Origin: Verrucomicrobiota bacterium
Lineage (GTDB): Bacteria > Verrucomicrobiota > Kiritimatiellia > JAHIZV01
Assembly (NCBI GenBank): GCA_018814445.1
Contig: JAHIZV010000169.1
Location: forward strand, 1 to 64,000
Direction of reading: 5' to 3'
Length of the DNA stretch: 64,000 bases
Part shown: piece after piece, positions 53,404-63,315 of the stretch
How positions within the stretch are numbered: position 1 is the first letter of the stretch
How the letters are laid out: each line of letters begins with the position of its first letter
Notes under the pieces: generated by a model
What the model was told of the DNA's origin: nothing
Database searches by the model: none
What the model saw: only the letters and a program-made list of their open reading frames with translations
Translations under genes and position numbers: made by a program

Positions 53404-54648
53404 CTATGCACCGTTCACTAATTGCTTTCTTAACATAACCAATGGATGAATCAGGTAGAAAAATGGGAGCGTCCATTTTTTTCTGAGTCTGTAGTAGCTC
53501 TGAATTCGGACGGGAGACGCAAAGAGAAGTCGGCCGATGAAAAGGAGGCGTACCGGCCTGAAGAAGAAGCCGTGATGCACATCCATGCTCGCCTGGATCA
53601 GGCGGTCCACCCAGCCGATGCTGAGCAGTCTTCCGGTCAGCGTGGTGTCTGTTTTGAGCATATCGGTGGTAACGCCCAGAGAGGCCAGCACTTCCGCGGC
53701 CCGCGACCCAGGCAGGAGCAAGTCCAGCAGGCGGAGCGTTTCGACGAGTTCGCCATTAACGTTTTGCTCGCGCGATCTTTCCCCGATGACATTCCAGTTC
53801 AGCTCTTCTTTTTCAAGAAAGAGCATGAGATCGATGAACCACACGAGCCGGTTATCTCGCGACGGCTTGAGGAACCACTCGGCGGGGCGGCTGTCACGGA
53901 GTCCCAGGAAGTTGATCAGGCCGTGTTTGGCCACGTGTAGACACAGGTATATCAGGGAGTCTTCCGGGGAGAGCGTCCCGATCTCGTGCCCGCTGGCGCG
54001 GAATGTGGTGACTCTGCTCAGAACGGCACGCATATCGATCCGCGCGAGATTCGCCTCATCCACCAGGCCCCAATGAAGTTCAATCCAGGGAAGGGAGTCG
54101 CTCTCGTGCTTGAGGACAAGATGAAAATGCGCCCGCCTCATCATCAGTTCACTGAACCAGTTTCCCGCGACCGAATAGCCCATCGTCTTAAGGACATCCA
54201 GAGCGCGCTGGACGTTTCGTCTGTGTACAAGGATGTCGACGTCGTCATACGGCCTGACGAAAAGGCCGTGGTAGTAGGATTCATGCAGGTAGGGACCCTT
54301 CAGCACGGCGTAGATCAACCGGTTCTCGCGGAAAAGCGCATCGATCTTTCCCAGCATGACGACGGTCACCTTGTGATGCATTTGCCGGCGACGGAGTTCC
54401 TGTGAAAGATGATCGCGGTACAGCTGCGGGATATTCATGTCGTCACGGGGAAGCAGAACCTGCGCGGCAAGAGGAAGCAGTCTGTGCGCGGCGAGAGCTT
54501 CGTAGGCCGTAGCCCAGTTCTCTATCTGCAGCTGTGCCCCGTCTTCGCGATGTGTAGCCACGCCCAGCTTCCGCATGCAGTCCGTCAGTATGCTTTCAGC
54601 GGAGACCGTGCGCGGGTTGGATTTCGTTATGACCCGTTCTTCGTCCAT
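53404..54648 (-). CDS. Nucleotidyltransferase family protein (NTP_transf_5-like)
   Basis: LIYAVLKGPYLHESYYHGLFVRPYDDVDILVHRRNVQRALDVLKTMGYSVAG; LPWIELHWGLVDEA. Confidence 0.85.
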   Translation of the reverse strand: MDEERVITKSNPRTVSAESILTDCMRKLGVATHREDGAQLQIENWATAYEALAAHRLLPLAAQVLLPRDDMNIPQLYRDHLSQELRRRQMHHKVTVVMLGKIDALFRENRLIYAVLKGPYLHESYYHGLFVRPYDDVDILVHRRNVQRALDVLKTMGYSVAGNWFSELMMRRAHFHLVLKHESDSLPWIELHWGLVDEANLARIDMRAVLSRVTTFRASGHEIGTLSPEDSLIYLCLHVAKHGLINFLGLRDSRPAEWFLKPSRDNRLVWFIDLMLFLEKEELNWNVIGERSREQNVNGELVETLRLLDLLLPGSRAAEVLASLGVTTDMLKTDTTLTGRLLSIGWVDRLIQASMDVHHGFFFRPVRLLFIGRLLFASPVRIQSYYRLRKKWTLPFFYLIHPLVMLRKQLVNGA

Positions 54649-54852: not shown

Positions 54853-55290
54853 ATGAACGAGGCTATGAATTTCTCAATAAACAGCCAGGATGTTGTCAAC
54901 GAGACGATCGAAGGCGAAGTGATCATGATCAACATGAAAAGCGGCAACTACTACAGTGTTGATCGAGTGGGCGCCGACATCTGGACCTGTCTTGAGAAAG
55001 GCCTGGCATCCGCGGATATTGTGGACGTCGTCGCGAAGAAGTACGCAGTGGATGCTGATACGGTGAAAGACGAAGTGGACCGGTTCTTGAGCGAATTGAA
55101 TGCGGAGAATCTTCTCTGCCCCGCTGAATCGTCCGCGTCCGCCGACGGGTTTGCCCTTGAGCCCGCAGGTGAGGGAGACTCGTTTCAGGCCCCTTCGCTT
55201 GACAAGTACGACGACCTTCAGGATCTGCTTCTCGCGGACCCGATTCACGACGTAGACGCCGGAGGCTGGCCGAACAATCCGGAGGCCTGA
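54853..55290 (+). CDS. PqqD-family (RRE-fold) protein with conserved-looking C-terminal tail DLQDLLLADPIHDVDAGGWPNN
   Basis: VNETIEGEVIMINMKSGNYYSVDRVGADIWTCLEKGLASADIVDVVAKKYAVDADTVKDEVDRFLSELNAENLL. Confidence 0.88.
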   Translation: MNEAMNFSINSQDVVNETIEGEVIMINMKSGNYYSVDRVGADIWTCLEKGLASADIVDVVAKKYAVDADTVKDEVDRFLSELNAENLLCPAESSASADGFALEPAGEGDSFQAPSLDKYDDLQDLLLADPIHDVDAGGWPNNPEA

Positions 55291-55307: not shown

Positions 55308-56378
55308 GTGACCGATCCTGCGACATCACCCGAACAGGAAGCTCGTATGATCGAGTTCCTCCGGGTCGCGCACGATCTGTTCGAGCGCGCCGCGGCGAAC
55401 GCGGGCGGTGTCCGGGAGCACGTCTTTGAGATCGCCGGCCTCCACCTGAAACTGCGTTTCGCGGGCGAAGCGATTGTTCCCCATGTTCTGCCCGCGCTGG
55501 AACATCTGTCCGTTCCTCTCCATGAAGACGTAAGCGCCACGATCGACCTGTGGGATGAAGCCTCGACGGGCATCGTCCTTCCCCGTCCGCCGTGGAAAGA
55601 AACGGACTACGTCATACGCGGCGAGATTCCCGGCCTGTGCAGTAGAGAAATGCACACGGCATTCGATCCGGGCTTTCGAGGACTCAGCATGCTCCACATC
55701 GCGGCGGGACGAGGGATCTTCCATCTGCCTGACGCGTCGCTGATTCCGTATTACGAGCACTCCTCCCCTCTGCGAAGCATTCTTCACCGGTGGCTTGAGG
55801 AGAACCGCAGGCAGTACATGCACGCGGGCGCAGTCGGGACGGAAAATGGCGGCGTGCTTATCGCGGGTAAGGGCGGCTCCGGCAAATCAAGCACCTGCCT
55901 GAAATGCCTGTGCGCGGGCATGCTGTATGCCGGCGATGACTACACCGTGCTTGATCTTGATGACATCCCCCGCGTTCACAGCCTCTACTGCACCGCCAAG
56001 CTTAACGCCGAAGACGTAGTGCATTTCCCCGAACTCAAAGGAGCAGTCCGGAACGAAGAAACCATGGACGCCGAAAAGGCCCTGCTCTTCGTGCGTGGCT
56101 TCTTCCCCGGGAACATCGTCAAAGCGCTCCGGCTCCGGGCCGTGCTGATTCCGAGCGTAGGACATCCGGGAACAGAGATAGTCCCCCTCTCACCGATCGC
56201 AGGACTGAAAGCCCTCGCCCCCAGCACCATCTTCCAACTCCCCGGCGCGGGCAGAAGAGCCTTCGAAACCCTCTCCGCGCTGGTAAAAAGGGTACCCTGC
56301 CACGCCCTCCATCTCGGCCCGGACCGAAACGAGATTCCTGATGTAATCAGATGCTTTCTGGAAGACGTTCAGCAGTAG
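55308..56378 (+). CDS. HPr-kinase/phosphorylase-like P-loop protein
   Basis: MHAGAVGTENGGVLIAGKGGSGKSSTCLKCLCAGMLYAGDDYTVLDLDD. Confidence 0.85.
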   Translation: MTDPATSPEQEARMIEFLRVAHDLFERAAANAGGVREHVFEIAGLHLKLRFAGEAIVPHVLPALEHLSVPLHEDVSATIDLWDEASTGIVLPRPPWKETDYVIRGEIPGLCSREMHTAFDPGFRGLSMLHIAAGRGIFHLPDASLIPYYEHSSPLRSILHRWLEENRRQYMHAGAVGTENGGVLIAGKGGSGKSSTCLKCLCAGMLYAGDDYTVLDLDDIPRVHSLYCTAKLNAEDVVHFPELKGAVRNEETMDAEKALLFVRGFFPGNIVKALRLRAVLIPSVGHPGTEIVPLSPIAGLKALAPSTIFQLPGAGRRAFETLSALVKRVPCHALHLGPDRNEIPDVIRCFLEDVQQ

Positions 56379-56496: not shown

Positions 56497-59400
56497 TCAA
56501 TTCTGCCAGAATGTGTAACGGTAACAAGCGCCGAAGGCGCAGATATTTGCATAAGCTGAGCCGCTCCACTTGGAGTCAAATCCACATTGTTTTACAGAAC
56601 AACCACCACTATTGCAGCACGCCTCCAATGCAACACCACGTGATGCCGAGATATTTGCTGTTGCTGAAGCCAATTTGTCCAGCCCCGCCAAAGACGTCTC
56701 AAGTTCACCGCCACCGGTTGCTGTCAGAGTGACACCTCCCATGATCTTGCCACAGCCTCCGCTCTTTCCCTCGCAGCCGCCATCCACGAATTCAACCGAT
56801 CCAGCCACCGTGCCTTCCACAGAGCCTTTGACACCGATGTAGCCGGAAATAGAGATATCCATACCGGGTACACCTATATTGAACTGAGGGCCACCTACTA
56901 CGGAAGCGCTTCCCTCGAGCGAGAAAGTCCACGATCCTCTTGTCTCCTCAGTCCACCCGCCAGGACAACACTCCTCGCACACCTCTCCTCTCAACTGAGT
57001 GGCAATCTTCATATCCCCCTGCAAACTAATCCAGCCGACAGGAGGGCCGATGTGGAAATCGCCGAGTCCCAATGAAAAGTCCTTATAGACGGCATGACAG
57101 TTGCGCTTAGCTGTCAAGCCTAGGGGGTCTACGTACACAACTGGACGATTCTCGACGAAGACGTACAGATGTTGACCTCCTTGCTCTCCGATAGGATCCC
57201 GGGACAGCCATCTTCCCGAACTTGGGTGGTAATGCCGGTAGCCGAAATACAATAGCCCACTCGCGCTATCCAGTTCCTTTCCGTTGAATAGGAACCGCGA
57301 CGTTTGGTTCGGCTGACTCGATACGAGAGTACCGAAGGGCGCGTATTCTAAACCGGCCATTTGCTCGTATGCATAGGTTGCCGCAATGCTCCCATTACCA
57401 GAGTTGAGCGGATTCATCAGCTCACCGGGATCGTTAACATCAATGCTGACGCCGAGGATTCCGCCGATGCCTCCAGCACTGTCAAGTGTTCCGGAGATGT
57501 CCATTCCTCGAACACAGACCTCGAGGTTCGAACTCTCACCATCCAGCACGGCCAAGGGAATAAAATGACTATAGACGTACAGATTTGTATGACAGGCGCC
57601 CCCTTCGCCCTGAGTACGCTTATACCTTCGAGCCAAGCCGTCATATTGGCTTCCCATTACATTCAATCCCGTTGCGAGCTTCGTGGCCCGAACAAGATGG
57701 TCTGCTTCGTCAAACGCATAAGCGAACTCTCCGTCGTTCGTCAGATTGCCGTTTGCATCGAAGGCGTAGGAATGTCCGCTGGCAACGACGCTGATCCGGC
57801 TGGTTGCGGACCGGCCGAAGACGTCGGTGGCAATGGCTATCCATTCGTTGGGTCCCGGTACGACGGCCTGGTTGGTGACGACAAATGTTCCGTCGCTGAA
57901 GGTGTATACCGGTTGACTATTAACGGTAATGACAGCGTCGGTGATATTGACTGAGCCCATGACGGCCATTACCCCCGCCCAGCCGCTTGTGGTGAGCTGA
58001 TTCAGTTCGTTGTAACGAGTCGATGTTACAAAGCCGTTCTCGACCTTCTGGGTCATGTTTCCGGCGGGATCGTATGCGTAGCGGAACGAGTAACCCGGCC
58101 ACGCCGAATCATCACCCATGTAGCCTTCGGCTGAAGTCAGTTGTCCGATGGCGTCGTAACCGTAGTCAATCCGCCTGCCGTCCTCGCGAACTACCCGGGT
58201 CCGTTGATCATGTCCGTCATAGGTGTACGCGAACGAGAGAAGAACATCTCCGGAGGATTTCTTATGCACAAGATTCGTGAGCCGCAGAAGGGCGTCATAA
58301 TGGTAGACGGTTCTCACTCCATTCGGGCGAATGAGTTCAGCGGGAAGCCGGCCGTTGCGAGTGTACATGTAACTGTACGAGCCTTCCGGCGCGGATACGC
58401 TGACAATGCGGTCCAGTGAGTCAAAACCATAGCCGACGCTGATCCCGCAGTAGGCCATGTTGGTCAATCGCTTGCTGGCGTCGTAGCCATACAGGACGCT
58501 GTCGTTCTGGAAAGGACCATCCGTACCGGTTTCTTTCGTGCAGCCCTCGACGTAGGACCACGTGGTCGTACCCACGCTGTCGATCATCTTTGTTCTTCGA
58601 TTCAGGGCGTCGTACTCGAAGCCGACGTCCGGATCGCTGTGATAGTTGACGTTGGTCAGATTGCCGTTCAGATCATAGGAGTAATAAGTCCATCGCCCGA
58701 TGCAGTCCCGCTTCGCGCTCAATTGACCTTCATCGTCGTATTGATACTGCTCGCCGCTTAGATCGTTGAATACCCGCGCCGTCTTTCGGCCTTCAGCATC
58801 GAAGCTGAAGTACGTGTGATGGCCGTTTTGATCGACGAGGTTGGTAACGTTGCCGAAAGCATCATATTGATAGCCGATGCTGTGTCCGGAGTTGTCGACA
58901 CGATTCGTCACCCGACCGAGAACATCGCGCTGATAGATTGAAATACGTCCCGCGCGGTCCGTTTCCCGCGCCAGGTACGTGTTGGTGTACTGTCTGTCGA
59001 CAAACGTACCATCCGGCAGATAAGTCCGCAGTGGCCGGCCAACTTCATCGAAGGTGTTGGAGATGACCAGTCCGCTCGCGTCACGAAACGCCACGAGCCA
59101 TCCCAACGCATTATACCAGTTGCTCTGCACCAGCAGTCCGTCACGCATGATGCCGGTCAGTTTGCCAAGGCCATCGTAGGTACGCTGTTCGGCAATCCCG
59201 TTGGGGTCCTGCATGCCGGTCAGTCGCCCCAATCCGTCATAGTAGTTACTGGTGATGAACCCTCGGCAGTCGCGGATGCTTATAGGCCTGTTGGCGGCAT
59301 CATACGTATACGATATTGCTTCTCCCATTGCGTTTGTCCGGCAAAGCCGGTTGCCGACCAGATCATATGAGTACGTGGTCGTGCTTCCGCCGGGCGAAGT

Positions 59401-62400
59401 CTCTGACGTGAGGTAGCCAAACTGGTCATAATCGAGCAAGGTGGCCCTTCCGAGACGGTCTTCCTGAGTGCGGATACCGTCCGGACCGTATGACCAGGTG
59501 CGAAAGGCGCCCGATCCGACATCTGTTTCCATGATCTTCCGGCCCAGTCCATCGTATGCATTCGTGATGATCTGTCCGGAGGGTGTGGTTTCAACTCGCA
59601 GTCTGCCTTTGTAGTCGTAGGTGTAGTACGTCGTATAGCCCAGCGGGTCGGTCTGCGATTCGGGATAACCCCATACGTCATATCCGACGATCGTCATTCC
59701 TCCGGATGGTGAGACAACATTGGTCGGTTGACCATAAGCGTTGTAGCGAATGGTCTGGGTGCTTCCGTCGGGGAAGGTTGTTGAAATCGGATTCCCGCGC
59801 CAGTCGTAAGTGTACCGTGTAACGTGGCCGAGAGCGTTGGTCGTGGTCACAAGATGACCACGCTCGTCATAACCATACTTTGTGACGTTGCCATGCGGAT
59901 CGGTTACTGCAATGGTGCGTCCAAGTGAATCGATCGTGTTGGACCAGAATGTGCCGTCCCGCTTACGTTCTGTCTGAACCTGGCCAAGTGCATCGTAGGT
60001 GAACGTCTGGTAGGTTCCGTCAGGATAGTCAACGCGCGTAATCCTGTTGCTTCCATCCCGTGTATTTGTCGTCGTGCGGCCCAACGGGTCGGTCATTGCC
60101 TGCAGATGCACGGGATACGTGTTGTCGGTGTAGCTCCAGTTCCAGCTTCTTCCCGCACTGTCGACTTCGGATGTGACTACGCCGAAATGAGCTGACAGGC
60201 CGTACGTGTGCGTATTGCCGAGGCGATCCACGTACGACGACATGAACCCCTGATTCCCGACATAACTGTAATTCTGCGCCTCTCCGGCTTCGTTCGTGAT
60301 GACCGCTACGCGCGTGCGATTCTCGTCCGGGTAGTAGCAGTACTTCTTTGAGCCATCCCCGTACTCGACCACATGCATGCCCGGCTGATTGGTCGGGAAC
60401 GTCAGCCTCGCCACGAGCGCGCTGGTTACCAGGTGCCGCTCTTCATAGATCATGCCCGACACGCCGACAGGCGCCTCGGGGCTGTTGTCTCTTTCCCGCT
60501 GATAGGAGTAGGCCATTCGGCTGTAGGGCGGCGGATACATTGGGTCATCTGCGCCTATAAGCACGGGGCGCCAGTATTTCCCCGGGGGAGGCGAGCGGTA
60601 AGAATACTTGGCCGATGTGCCGTCACCATAGTTCGCGCGTCTCAACGCGCCGTGACCGATTCCGTCAATGAACATGGAGTCATACTCGTAACTGACCACG
60701 CGGCCATCACTGCCGGACGCGCAGAGGATAAACTCCGGCGCAATCCAGATCACGGAACTGAAGTCGTTCGCCTCGTCCACATACGGATTGTTCGTGTCGG
60801 TAAGCCAGTTGGTTCCGTTCACGATGAACTTGTACTGATAGACTCCCTCCGCAAGATCGACCGCTCCGGTCCAGAGGCCGCCTCCCGCATCGTACATCTG
60901 ATAGTTCGATGTCGGGCTGTAATCGCGCCCGGGCAGACGCACGCAGGAACCCGTCAGACTGACGAAGTTGAACGCGAAATTCCCGAACGTATCTTTGCTT
61001 CCCGACGCTCCGTCCCCGAGGAAATACCCCGACAGATAACGGTCGTTGCCGCTTGTTCCGTCGCTGGCGAGCACTCCTGCAATGAAACATGTCGAAACAG
61101 AAGATACCGCCTGTGCGTTCAGCGACGTCCACGGTATGCTCACCTCCCAGCGTTCCGTGATCCGGTTGCCGTCTCCGTCCGTTGAAGTTGTTGGATTGGT
61201 TCCGGTTCCGTCGAACTGCGAAATGCGAGCCCCGGCCACCGCATTGAATCCGCCCGAGCCGCCAAGATAGAAAGCGCCCTGGCCATATTGGTATCCTGAA
61301 CCGATCTGGAACGCATAGGAATTGGCATCCCCCCATTCATCGCCCAGCAGGATGGCGATATCCATCGGGTGGGCAAACTTCACGTTATGCAAGTAATCGA
61401 GAGCGTAGGGTTGGCCGGTCTTCTGCCAGAGGTTCGACGCATTGTCGGTAAGCGTGTCAAAATCCAGAAAGACAATCATCCCGTTGTGGTCGTCTGACAC
61501 ATCAAGGCCAATGCCGCCGACATAGAAGTTAGTCGCGTCATAATTAACGTAGATTTGGCCGAAGCTTCCGTATCCGCCTGAACCGGAGGTGATCCATGAT
61601 CCGCCGTTTGTATTGAAGTCGAAGTTATCACCGATGTTATTCTGGTCGGCTCCTGGCGGGTCTGCGGTGACGAGCGGAGACCCGTTCGTCGCGGCGTTAC
61701 TTTCAGGGGTACAGCACGGGGAGGACTCCTGCAGTTGCCAATAAGGATCACGGCCGGGCATGCGAAGCCTTGTTCCTGTCAGGCGCATAAAATTGAAGCC
61801 GAACTCGTTGTTCTGATCGAGCGGACCCTCTGCGGAATCTCCCAGGTATCCTGCCGAAAGATAGCGGTTGTTGCCGCTGACATTCTGGCTCGCGACTACG
61901 CCCGCGACAACGCAGGTCGTGATGGAAGAGATATCGGATGCGCCAAGATCCGACCACGGTATCTTAACTTCCCAGCGATCTGTGAGTCGATTTCCGTCGT
62001 CGTCGGTGGAAACGGTTGCATTGGTTCCTTCGCCATCAAACTGTGAGACCGTTGCCCCGCTTACAGGGACAAACGCCCCGCTGCCGCCGAGAAGGAACAC
62101 ACCCTGTCCAAAGTTGTAGCCCGACCCGAGTTCGAAGGAAGGATAGTTACCGTCACCATACTCATCGCCCAGCACCATGGCGATATCCATGGGGCGAACG
62201 AATTCGACATTGTGCAAGTAATCCAGACCGTTGGGCGCGCCGGTCTTATTCCAAAGATTCGAGGCGTTTTCAGCCAGTGTGTTGAAGTCCAGAAACAGGA
62301 TCATAGCATCGCCATCGCCCAGCATCTCGCAGTCGTATGCTCCGACATAGAAATTTGTCTCATCGTAGTTGAAATAGACATTCCCGAGACTCCCAAATGA

Positions 62401-63315
62401 ACCACCCGCGGAGGATGTTATGAGTGGACTGCTATTGGTAGTCAGGTCGAACTTGTCGCCCACGTTGTTCTGCTGTATTCCAGGAGGATCACTTGACACC
62501 GCCGGGGAATACTCGATCGGTGAGCGAAGGCTGAAATCAGCTCCGTTCCAGGTTGCGGCAATGACAACGGAAGTGGCTTCGGCATCAGCCCACTGAAAAC
62601 TGATTCGACCGGGCGAAACGAAGTTGGTCGGGTTTCCGTACTCGATCTGGATGAAATGATTTGTGTTGGGATCAGCCACTTTCACGAGCCGGCCCTGTGA
62701 GTCATAGCTGAAAGAGGAGAAGCGCTCAAAGGCGTCATAAACGCCCTGCATCTGAAATGTCGAGCCGGGCCCTTTATAGAACGCATGCCGTGTGCCGTCT
62801 GTTGAGAGCAGATAGAACTGGTTGGGATCGATGTCGGACTGCAGTAGACGATTCTGAACCGCGGCGCCGGCGACGTAGTAGAGACTGGTCGATGATTCCT
62901 TGTAGTAGTAGGAGTCAACACCTGAAGGCCAACTTACGCGGATCACGGGGCCATAACTGTTGGCTCCGACCTCCGAAATGTCCCAGAAGTAGTTGTGACG
63001 CCAGTTTCCCGCCGTGCCAAACTCGGAGACGATGTTCCCAAGCCAACGGCTTGACGAGATTCTCTCGAACTTCAGTTTGTCCGCGCCCACGCCATCGGAA
63101 AGAGCGAGATCTGACACTTCCCGATGGACATTGCCGTTGTAAATCCAGAAAGGATTGCCTCCGCTTCCGTCAGGTCTGCAACAGTCACCATCCGGACAGT
63201 CGTCGGGTATGTTTTCACAGTTCTGACCAAAGGATCGGCAGGACAGCAACAAGACTGCCGCAACCAGAATGAACCACGAGCATTTGTCATTTCTCACCAC
63301 TCCCTCCCTCGTCAA
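56497..63315 (-). CDS. Secreted RHS/YD-repeat protein (2272 aa) with N-terminal carbohydrate-binding-like insertions and Cys-rich C-terminal domain
   Basis: Signal peptide; dozens of YDxxGR/YDALG repeats; RHS core end GKELDSASGLLYFGYRHYHPSSGRWLSRDPIGEQGG; likely TTG/GTG start. Confidence 0.95.
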   Translation of the reverse strand: MTREGVVRNDKCSWFILVAAVLLLSCRSFGQNCENIPDDCPDGDCCRPDGSGGNPFWIYNGNVHREVSDLALSDGVGADKLKFERISSSRWLGNIVSEFGTAGNWRHNYFWDISEVGANSYGPVIRVSWPSGVDSYYYKESSTSLYYVAGAAVQNRLLQSDIDPNQFYLLSTDGTRHAFYKGPGSTFQMQGVYDAFERFSSFSYDSQGRLVKVADPNTNHFIQIEYGNPTNFVSPGRISFQWADAEATSVVIAATWNGADFSLRSPIEYSPAVSSDPPGIQQNNVGDKFDLTTNSSPLITSSAGGSFGSLGNVYFNYDETNFYVGAYDCEMLGDGDAMILFLDFNTLAENASNLWNKTGAPNGLDYLHNVEFVRPMDIAMVLGDEYGDGNYPSFELGSGYNFGQGVFLLGGSGAFVPVSGATVSQFDGEGTNATVSTDDDGNRLTDRWEVKIPWSDLGASDISSITTCVVAGVVASQNVSGNNRYLSAGYLGDSAEGPLDQNNEFGFNFMRLTGTRLRMPGRDPYWQLQESSPCCTPESNAATNGSPLVTADPPGADQNNIGDNFDFNTNGGSWITSGSGGYGSFGQIYVNYDATNFYVGGIGLDVSDDHNGMIVFLDFDTLTDNASNLWQKTGQPYALDYLHNVKFAHPMDIAILLGDEWGDANSYAFQIGSGYQYGQGAFYLGGSGGFNAVAGARISQFDGTGTNPTTSTDGDGNRITERWEVSIPWTSLNAQAVSSVSTCFIAGVLASDGTSGNDRYLSGYFLGDGASGSKDTFGNFAFNFVSLTGSCVRLPGRDYSPTSNYQMYDAGGGLWTGAVDLAEGVYQYKFIVNGTNWLTDTNNPYVDEANDFSSVIWIAPEFILCASGSDGRVVSYEYDSMFIDGIGHGALRRANYGDGTSAKYSYRSPPPGKYWRPVLIGADDPMYPPPYSRMAYSYQRERDNSPEAPVGVSGMIYEERHLVTSALVARLTFPTNQPGMHVVEYGDGSKKYCYYPDENRTRVAVITNEAGEAQNYSYVGNQGFMSSYVDRLGNTHTYGLSAHFGVVTSEVDSAGRSWNWSYTDNTYPVHLQAMTDPLGRTTTNTRDGSNRITRVDYPDGTYQTFTYDALGQVQTERKRDGTFWSNTIDSLGRTIAVTDPHGNVTKYGYDERGHLVTTTNALGHVTRYTYDWRGNPISTTFPDGSTQTIRYNAYGQPTNVVSPSGGMTIVGYDVWGYPESQTDPLGYTTYYTYDYKGRLRVETTPSGQIITNAYDGLGRKIMETDVGSGAFRTWSYGPDGIRTQEDRLGRATLLDYDQFGYLTSETSPGGSTTTYSYDLVGNRLCRTNAMGEAISYTYDAANRPISIRDCRGFITSNYYDGLGRLTGMQDPNGIAEQRTYDGLGKLTGIMRDGLLVQSNWYNALGWLVAFRDASGLVISNTFDEVGRPLRTYLPDGTFVDRQYTNTYLARETDRAGRISIYQRDVLGRVTNRVDNSGHSIGYQYDAFGNVTNLVDQNGHHTYFSFDAEGRKTARVFNDLSGEQYQYDDEGQLSAKRDCIGRWTYYSYDLNGNLTNVNYHSDPDVGFEYDALNRRTKMIDSVGTTTWSYVEGCTKETGTDGPFQNDSVLYGYDASKRLTNMAYCGISVGYGFDSLDRIVSVSAPEGSYSYMYTRNGRLPAELIRPNGVRTVYHYDALLRLTNLVHKKSSGDVLLSFAYTYDGHDQRTRVVREDGRRIDYGYDAIGQLTSAEGYMGDDSAWPGYSFRYAYDPAGNMTQKVENGFVTSTRYNELNQLTTSGWAGVMAVMGSVNITDAVITVNSQPVYTFSDGTFVVTNQAVVPGPNEWIAIATDVFGRSATSRISVVASGHSYAFDANGNLTNDGEFAYAFDEADHLVRATKLATGLNVMGSQYDGLARRYKRTQGEGGACHTNLYVYSHFIPLAVLDGESSNLEVCVRGMDISGTLDSAGGIGGILGVSIDVNDPGELMNPLNSGNGSIAATYAYEQMAGLEYAPFGTLVSSQPNQTSRFLFNGKELDSASGLLYFGYRHYHPSSGRWLSRDPIGEQGGQHLYVFVENRPVVYVDPLGLTAKRNCHAVYKDFSLGLGDFHIGPPVGWISLQGDMKIATQLRGEVCEECCPGGWTEETRGSWTFSLEGSASVVGGPQFNIGVPGMDISISGYIGVKGSVEGTVAGSVEFVDGGCEGKSGGCGKIMGGVTLTATGGGELETSLAGLDKLASATANISASRGVALEACCNSGGCSVKQCGFDSKWSGSAYANICAFGACYRYTFWQN

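Follow-up and report, generated by a model that had tools for sequence, protein, structure and literature searches.

We found that a PqqD-like protein encoded in the window, i.e., the whole stretch of 64,000 nucleotides analyzed here, ends in a leader-like tail that is fused and co-adapted to its RRE domain and has no separate precursor nearby. The RRE is the PqqD-like adaptor of RiPP pathways, and its usual ligand is the leader of a separate peptide. RREs that have no precursor, known as orphans, pose a puzzle for genome mining. If the leader lies inside the RRE protein, precursor searches near such clusters should come up empty. The tailed system spans many phyla and offers an RRE-leader fusion made by nature, in which the role of groove residues can be tested. 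It also raises the question of whether RiPP machinery was taken over for surface-glycan synthesis.

A leader-like tail fused to an RRE domain

The protein is encoded between a divergent nucleotidyltransferase-like gene (NTase) and the gene of an HPr-kinase-like protein. The features of the locus are:

53404-54648 (-): nucleotidyltransferase-like protein PF14907 (1.4e-37), 414 aa, divergent from the PqqD gene
54853-55290 (+): PqqD-like protein ORF, 145 aa, ATG start
54853-55122 (+): PqqD-like RRE domain, residues 1-90, winged-helix fold with leader-binding groove
55072-55074 and 55105-55107 (+): co-adapted RRE-domain positions E74 and E85
55123-55182 (+): flexible linker, residues 91-110, Ser/Ala/Glu/Gly, no sequence conservation
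55183-55212 (+): putative RRE-binding tail half F111-x-x-P114-x-L116-x-K118-Y119, leader motif [Y/W/F]xxPx[L/V]
55213-55236 (+): tail helix D121-A128 (DLQDLLLA), AlphaFold2 helix 122-127
55237-55272 (+): segment D129-P130-I-H-x-V-D-x-x-G-W-P140, invariant, candidate docking or modification site, AlphaFold2 confidence 53-69
55308-56378 (+): HPr-kinase-like kinase, 356 aa, Walker A GKGGSGKS, weak HprK matches, downstream of the PqqD gene

Directly downstream, on the opposite strand, the window encodes a YD-repeat (RHS-like) protein of 2272 residues (56497-63315, -).

The protein belongs to the RRE/PqqD-like class, with a PF05402 (PqqD) match over residues 22-88 (E=2e-15) and a winged-helix RRE fold. 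It is not a PQQ-type PqqD, since it scored 13.5 bits with TIGR03859, against a cut-off of 46. Its best sequence match in the PDB is TbiB1 (3.7e-18), and its best structure matches in Foldseek are TbiB1-leader complexes (5v1u, 1.2e-6). The tail described in the first-pass annotation, following an RRE-like domain and a linker, is indeed present: it reads FQAPSLDKYDDLQDLLLADPIHDVDAGGWPNNPEA, from the F111 codon at 55183 to the stop codon at 55288-55290. The linker has 20 residues here and 15-27 across relatives.

Lasso and LPP leaders bind the RRE through [Y/W]xxPx[L/V/I/F/A] (PMC13381572; YxxPxL also in PMC10368454). The leader aromatic residue fills one RRE pocket and Leu/Val another, and the beta sheet is lengthened by the leader backbone (PMC13381572). 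The tail carries the motif [Y/W/F]xxPx[L/V/I] as F111, P114, and L116. In an AlphaFold2 (AF2) model built with 81 sequences, it forms a strand (116-119) and a helix (122-127), with a pLDDT of 94 for the block 111-120 and of 93-96 across residues 11-90 of the RRE domain except for the last block; confidence is low past residue 128. This model, in which docking was read from DSSP and pLDDT alone and not from coordinates, and the sequence motif support a placement in which the FxxPxLxxY half adds a beta strand within the groove of the same protein. AF2 modeled the same strand and helix for subtype II (L143, L166), whose tail has no FxxP.

Domain and tail are also linked by covariation among the 104 tailed proteins. 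Residue 74 of the window protein corresponds to D70 of LppB (numbering verified against the LppB sequence), which hydrogen-bonds the leader Tyr (PMC13381572). Residue 74 is acidic in 14 of the 21 proteins with Tyr or Trp at position 111, versus 12 of the 79 with Phe (p=9e-6), and is mostly Ala, Gly, or Ser where the tail has Phe111. This pairing ranks first among 83 positions. Similarly, E/D85 accompanies K/R118 (81/84 versus 7/20, p=3e-9), the window pair being K118 and E85. Both associations recur in independent pairs on the tree (7:0 and 6:0 in two analyses, p=0.008-0.016, for 111/74; 5:0, p=0.03, for 118/85), although these tests are modest in strength, and the enrichment of covariation across all template contacts is not significant (p=0.12). 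Tailless RREs have D/E74 in 57 of 60 cases and E/D85 in 5 of 60; the latter is found in 88 of the 104 tailed ones. These patterns indicate that the RRE domain is adapted to the tail, the covariation being blind to binding in cis versus in a swapped dimer. Together, sequence, covariation, and model strongly support a leader fused in cis to its own RRE.

Distribution and conservation of the tail

To assess how widespread the tail is, we scanned 84,980 genomes and obtained 272 pattern matches and 235 confirmed loci encoding tail relatives, which bears out the earlier view that the tail is patterned rather than random and shows that it is conserved in homologues. Among the 235, all 80 matches listed have the tail at the C-terminus of a PqqD protein. 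They come from more than 10 phyla and include Chloroflexi, Cyanobacteria, Bacteroidetes, Acidobacteria, Desulfuromonadales and other former Deltaproteobacteria, Nitrospirae, Verrucomicrobia, Planctomycetes, Ignavibacteria, Aminicenantes, and others. The protein of Crinalium epipsammum PCC 9333 (WP_232229449.1), for example, has the tail CFEKPMLEKFTDMEDLLLLDPIHEVDVEAGWPNAKTA. The consensus is [FY]xxPxLxKYTDMQDLLLLDPIHEVDExGWP, where LLLxDPIH was forced by the scan pattern, so that its invariance is in part selection. Profile searches of around 300 genomes each of Chloroflexota, Desulfobacterota (the phylum of a Desulfuromonas), and Bacteroidota revealed additional members, some with looser tails (DQLMLDPIH, EIIRMDPIH, GALMSDPVH, ELILSDPIH).

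In the window's phylum, 4 other genomes among 289 have the tail, each time as the PqqD C-terminus; the window's own genome has a single copy. With a profile of the domain only (241 genomes of this phylum and 98 cyanobacteria), the top-scoring RREs were tailed and nearly all those scoring below them end 0-11 residues past the domain. The tail is thus restricted to one set of close relatives in these domain-only searches. A single origin of the tailed RREs is unproven: all 104 fall on one side of a weak split (0.65), alongside 19 tailless ones.

In a sample ranked by tail similarity, mean entropy is 1.46 bits for those tail columns that the scan pattern leaves free, whereas the folded domain has 2.23 and the linker 3.48. 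In the extended set, D121, D129, and P130 are each found in 104 of 104 proteins, H132 in 102, W139 in 101, and P114 in 99, and position 111 is F, Y, or W in 100. The tail is always attached to the RRE protein: no stand-alone copies were found among the listed genome matches, in six-frame HMM scans of all loci, or in viral contigs, and the search of small ORFs for the motif, proposed in the first-pass annotation, came back empty. The tail had no match among NCBIfam peptide models or in the PDB. Two loci (L174, L187; subtype III) keep YxxPxLxxYxDMAxxLALDP next to the same partner genes, with a PPxPGV end in place of IHxVDxxGWP.

Precursors and neighboring genes

To search for separate precursors, we looked for short ORFs that begin with a start codon and contain the pattern [YFW]xxPx[LVI]x(7-10)T. 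Next to tailless RREs there were 24 such ORFs in sense versus 3 in antisense (214 kb); next to tailed RREs the numbers were 15 and 12 (849 kb). Hence, in this search of the clusters themselves, no separate YxxP precursor stands above background at the 92 tailed loci, and no small ORF is conserved across them.

The window's genome has a second, tailless RRE cluster (L145; contig C31, 1-12000) with a 25-residue precursor, MKEYQAPEVIEYPALTDVTGGSPLD, together with genes for a transglutaminase, a radical SAM protein, an AMP-ligase-like protein, an HprK kinase, an NTase, and glycosyltransferases. This precursor fits the LPP leader consensus, outside Bacillota. Stand-alone precursor and tail align without gaps (YQAPEVIEYPALTDVTGGSPLD versus FQAPSLDKYDDLQDLLLADPIH), and the stand-alone precursors have Thr at the spacing of tail position 126. 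The LPP consensus YxxPxVLxHQxIxFETxxS includes the cleavage Thr and the phosphorylated Ser (PMC13381572). In a register that rests on one precursor and this published consensus, the precursor Thr and Ser would align with these two residues, and the tail would have L126 and D129 in their place. A cleavage-site Thr is lacking in all 104 tailed proteins, since position 126 is Leu in 101 and Ile in 3; rare leaders do have Ile(-2) (PMC10368454), with which the three Ile126 tails would be compatible.

We then counted gene families at those tailed loci that have 7 kb or more of downstream sequence (60 loci). The kinase family of the window is present in 52, its NTase family in 49, GT2 glycosyltransferases in 54 (mean 2.6 copies), GT4 in 19, and a sulfotransferase in 10. 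An ABC exporter-type ATPase was found in 35, an upper figure given that the profile also catches other ABC ATPases, e.g., the window's molybdate transporter. The window locus has the kinase and the NTase, and no GT2 or exporter within 12 kb. An annotated example is plasmid pCRI9333.04 of C. epipsammum PCC 9333, which encodes a PqqD family protein, a nucleotidyltransferase, an HPr kinase, glycosyltransferases, and an ABC transporter. The B2 transglutaminase-type leader peptidase was found at 1 of 85 tailed loci (phmmer, one query). In a pooled Pfam scan, neither a lasso cyclase (asparagine-synthetase-like) nor a signal peptidase (SpI-like LppS) showed up among the recurrent neighbor families. 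The corresponding enzymes of lasso clusters act in sequence: a Ser is phosphorylated by the kinase, and attaching hexoses to the phosphate requires the NTase (PMC8498205, PMC9266682).

A few loci depart from this layout. A Chloroflexi subgroup (L040, L097, L106) is tailed and has neither kinase nor NTase. Its tails are DMADLLLLDPIHEVD (L040, L106) and DMAELLLLDPIHEVD (L097), and the genes adjoin ABC genes and AMP-ligase/carrier/acyltransferase proteins (exporters or NRPS-like genes). Two tailed clusters encode a kinase-GT2 fusion and an NTase-radical SAM fusion (L054, 4660-7224; L208, 2389-4470). An HprK-like kinase encoded next to a subtype II tailed RRE (L166, 10181-11719, -) itself carries a PqqD-like domain at the C-terminus (PF05402, E=0.0011, below the cut-off).

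Possible roles of the tail and known systems

The reading that we favor, and hold to be probable, is that an RRE with a leader fused through a linker acts as a self-loaded adaptor that docks the kinase, the NTase, and glycosyltransferases. The FxxPxLxxY half of the tail would fill its own groove as an extra beta strand and keep the RRE permanently loaded; with the groove permanently filled, a separate precursor would be unnecessary. The cleavage Thr and the phosphorylated Ser of leaders would have been lost, and the hyperconserved DMQxLLLxDPIHxVDxxGWP would have taken the place of a variable core. Exposed on the surface, this segment would dock or activate the enzymes encoded alongside (kinase, NTase-like protein, glycosyltransferases), which would go on to synthesize a phosphorylated or glycosylated product and export it. 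We infer the docking, which the first-pass annotation had also proposed for the kinase or NTase, from the gene neighborhood. It fits the suggestion of Popov et al. that the part of the LppA leader beyond the RRE contact serves modifying enzymes (PMC13381572). The Chloroflexi subgroup, tailed without kinase or NTase, and subtype III, which lacks IHxVDxxGWP beside the same genes, both run counter to docking and to a single strict role of the whole tail. More tentatively, these proteins could form a widespread class of RREs with an internalized leader and neither precursor nor cleavage site, with Asp standing for the phospho-Ser and the RiPP-type kinase and NTase engaged for a phospho-glycan rather than a peptide.

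The tail might instead be a complete precursor fused to the RRE, with the leader half in the groove and DPIHxVDxxGWP as a universal core. Such a core would be modified on Asp, His, Trp, or its backbone, perhaps excised, and decorated with sugars, on the model of cofactor-like RiPPs such as PQQ and mycofactocin. This would explain why tailed clusters have no other precursor, why a core-like segment is conserved past the RRE-binding part, and why the clusters hold modifying enzymes and an exporter. Yet we consider it unlikely. There is no conserved hydroxyl for the kinase: the tail would be a poor kinase substrate because 17 of 81 tails, including that of the window, lack S/T/Y after D121 and 25 of 81 lack Ser from F111. 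At its own site, LppK took Ser as an acceptor but neither Thr nor Tyr (PMC13381572). The scarcity of a leader peptidase, the lost cleavage Thr, and the partners kept by subtype III without IHxVDxxGWP also count against it. Hence, of the first-pass proposal of a fused leader or substrate, the leader part has held up (RRE motif, AF2 strand, covariation at two domain positions, loss of the precursor, gap-free precursor match), whereas the substrate part is weakened by the absence of a conserved Ser/Thr, the lost cleavage Thr, and a "core" that is hyperconserved rather than variable. As a universal Ser phosphoacceptor the tail was rejected, many of the 81 having no Ser.

It is rather improbable that the tail is an autoinhibitory plug, blocking the groove until a partner or a true leader, unlinked in the genome, displaces it. 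The tail does fill the groove in the AF2 model, and a plug would shield the RRE from the leaders of any lasso-type cluster in its genome; in Oscillatoria PCC 10802, for instance, the two RREs are separated by 9.6 kb. However, with A/G/S at 74 the groove is re-tuned to the tail Phe and no longer to leaders with Tyr or Trp, no precursor lies near tailed RREs, and plugging would not require an invariant DPIHxVDxxGWP. That the tail is a C-terminal sorting, degradation, or dimerization tag unrelated to leaders, with a chance FxxPxL, would agree with the low AF2 confidence past residue 128 and is hardly credible given the motif, the strand, the covariation with residue 74, a known leader contact, and the tail-like precursor that this genome encodes elsewhere.

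We found no report of this motif or of an RRE-leader fusion of this kind in the open-access text of PMC. Among described systems, the PqqD-like chaperones of HPr-rel-A, SynChlorMet, and GeoRSP (NCBIfam) resemble the protein studied here, and two of these systems have an HprK-related kinase, but the window protein scores far below the curated cut-offs of their models. The lasso B1 RREs (TbiB1, TfuB1, paeninodin/pseudomycoidin type with K and N genes) share the fold and the leader motif, and their K and N enzymes, which phosphorylate and glycosylate the peptide (PMC8498205, PMC9266682), have counterparts in the kinase and NTase common to tailed loci. Unlike lasso clusters, tailed loci have no recurrent B2 protease and no separate precursor nearby, no cyclase recurred in the pooled scan, and the tail is a fixed sequence. 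The LPP RiPPs of Bacillota (LppB/LppK/LppN/LppD/LppS; Popov 2026, PMC13381572) have, like tailed loci, a discrete RRE, an HprK-like kinase, an NTP transferase, and an MsbA-like exporter (the last three present at 52, 49, and 35 of the 60 tailed loci), are also rich in glycosyltransferases, and have a leader motif, [Y/W]xxPx[V/L], that binds the RRE groove. LPP systems have a separate precursor, a cleavage Thr, a phospho-Ser, and an SpI-type peptidase. In contrast, tailed loci have the leader fused, Leu and Asp in place of Thr and Ser (the Ser position being D129 in 104 of 104, with no LPP-type separate precursor YxxPxV...TxxS above background), and no peptidase among the recurrent families of the pooled scan. 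The fusion would be a new variation on the RRE-leader theme, in which a role of the tail as substrate is possible but disfavored and docking is favored.
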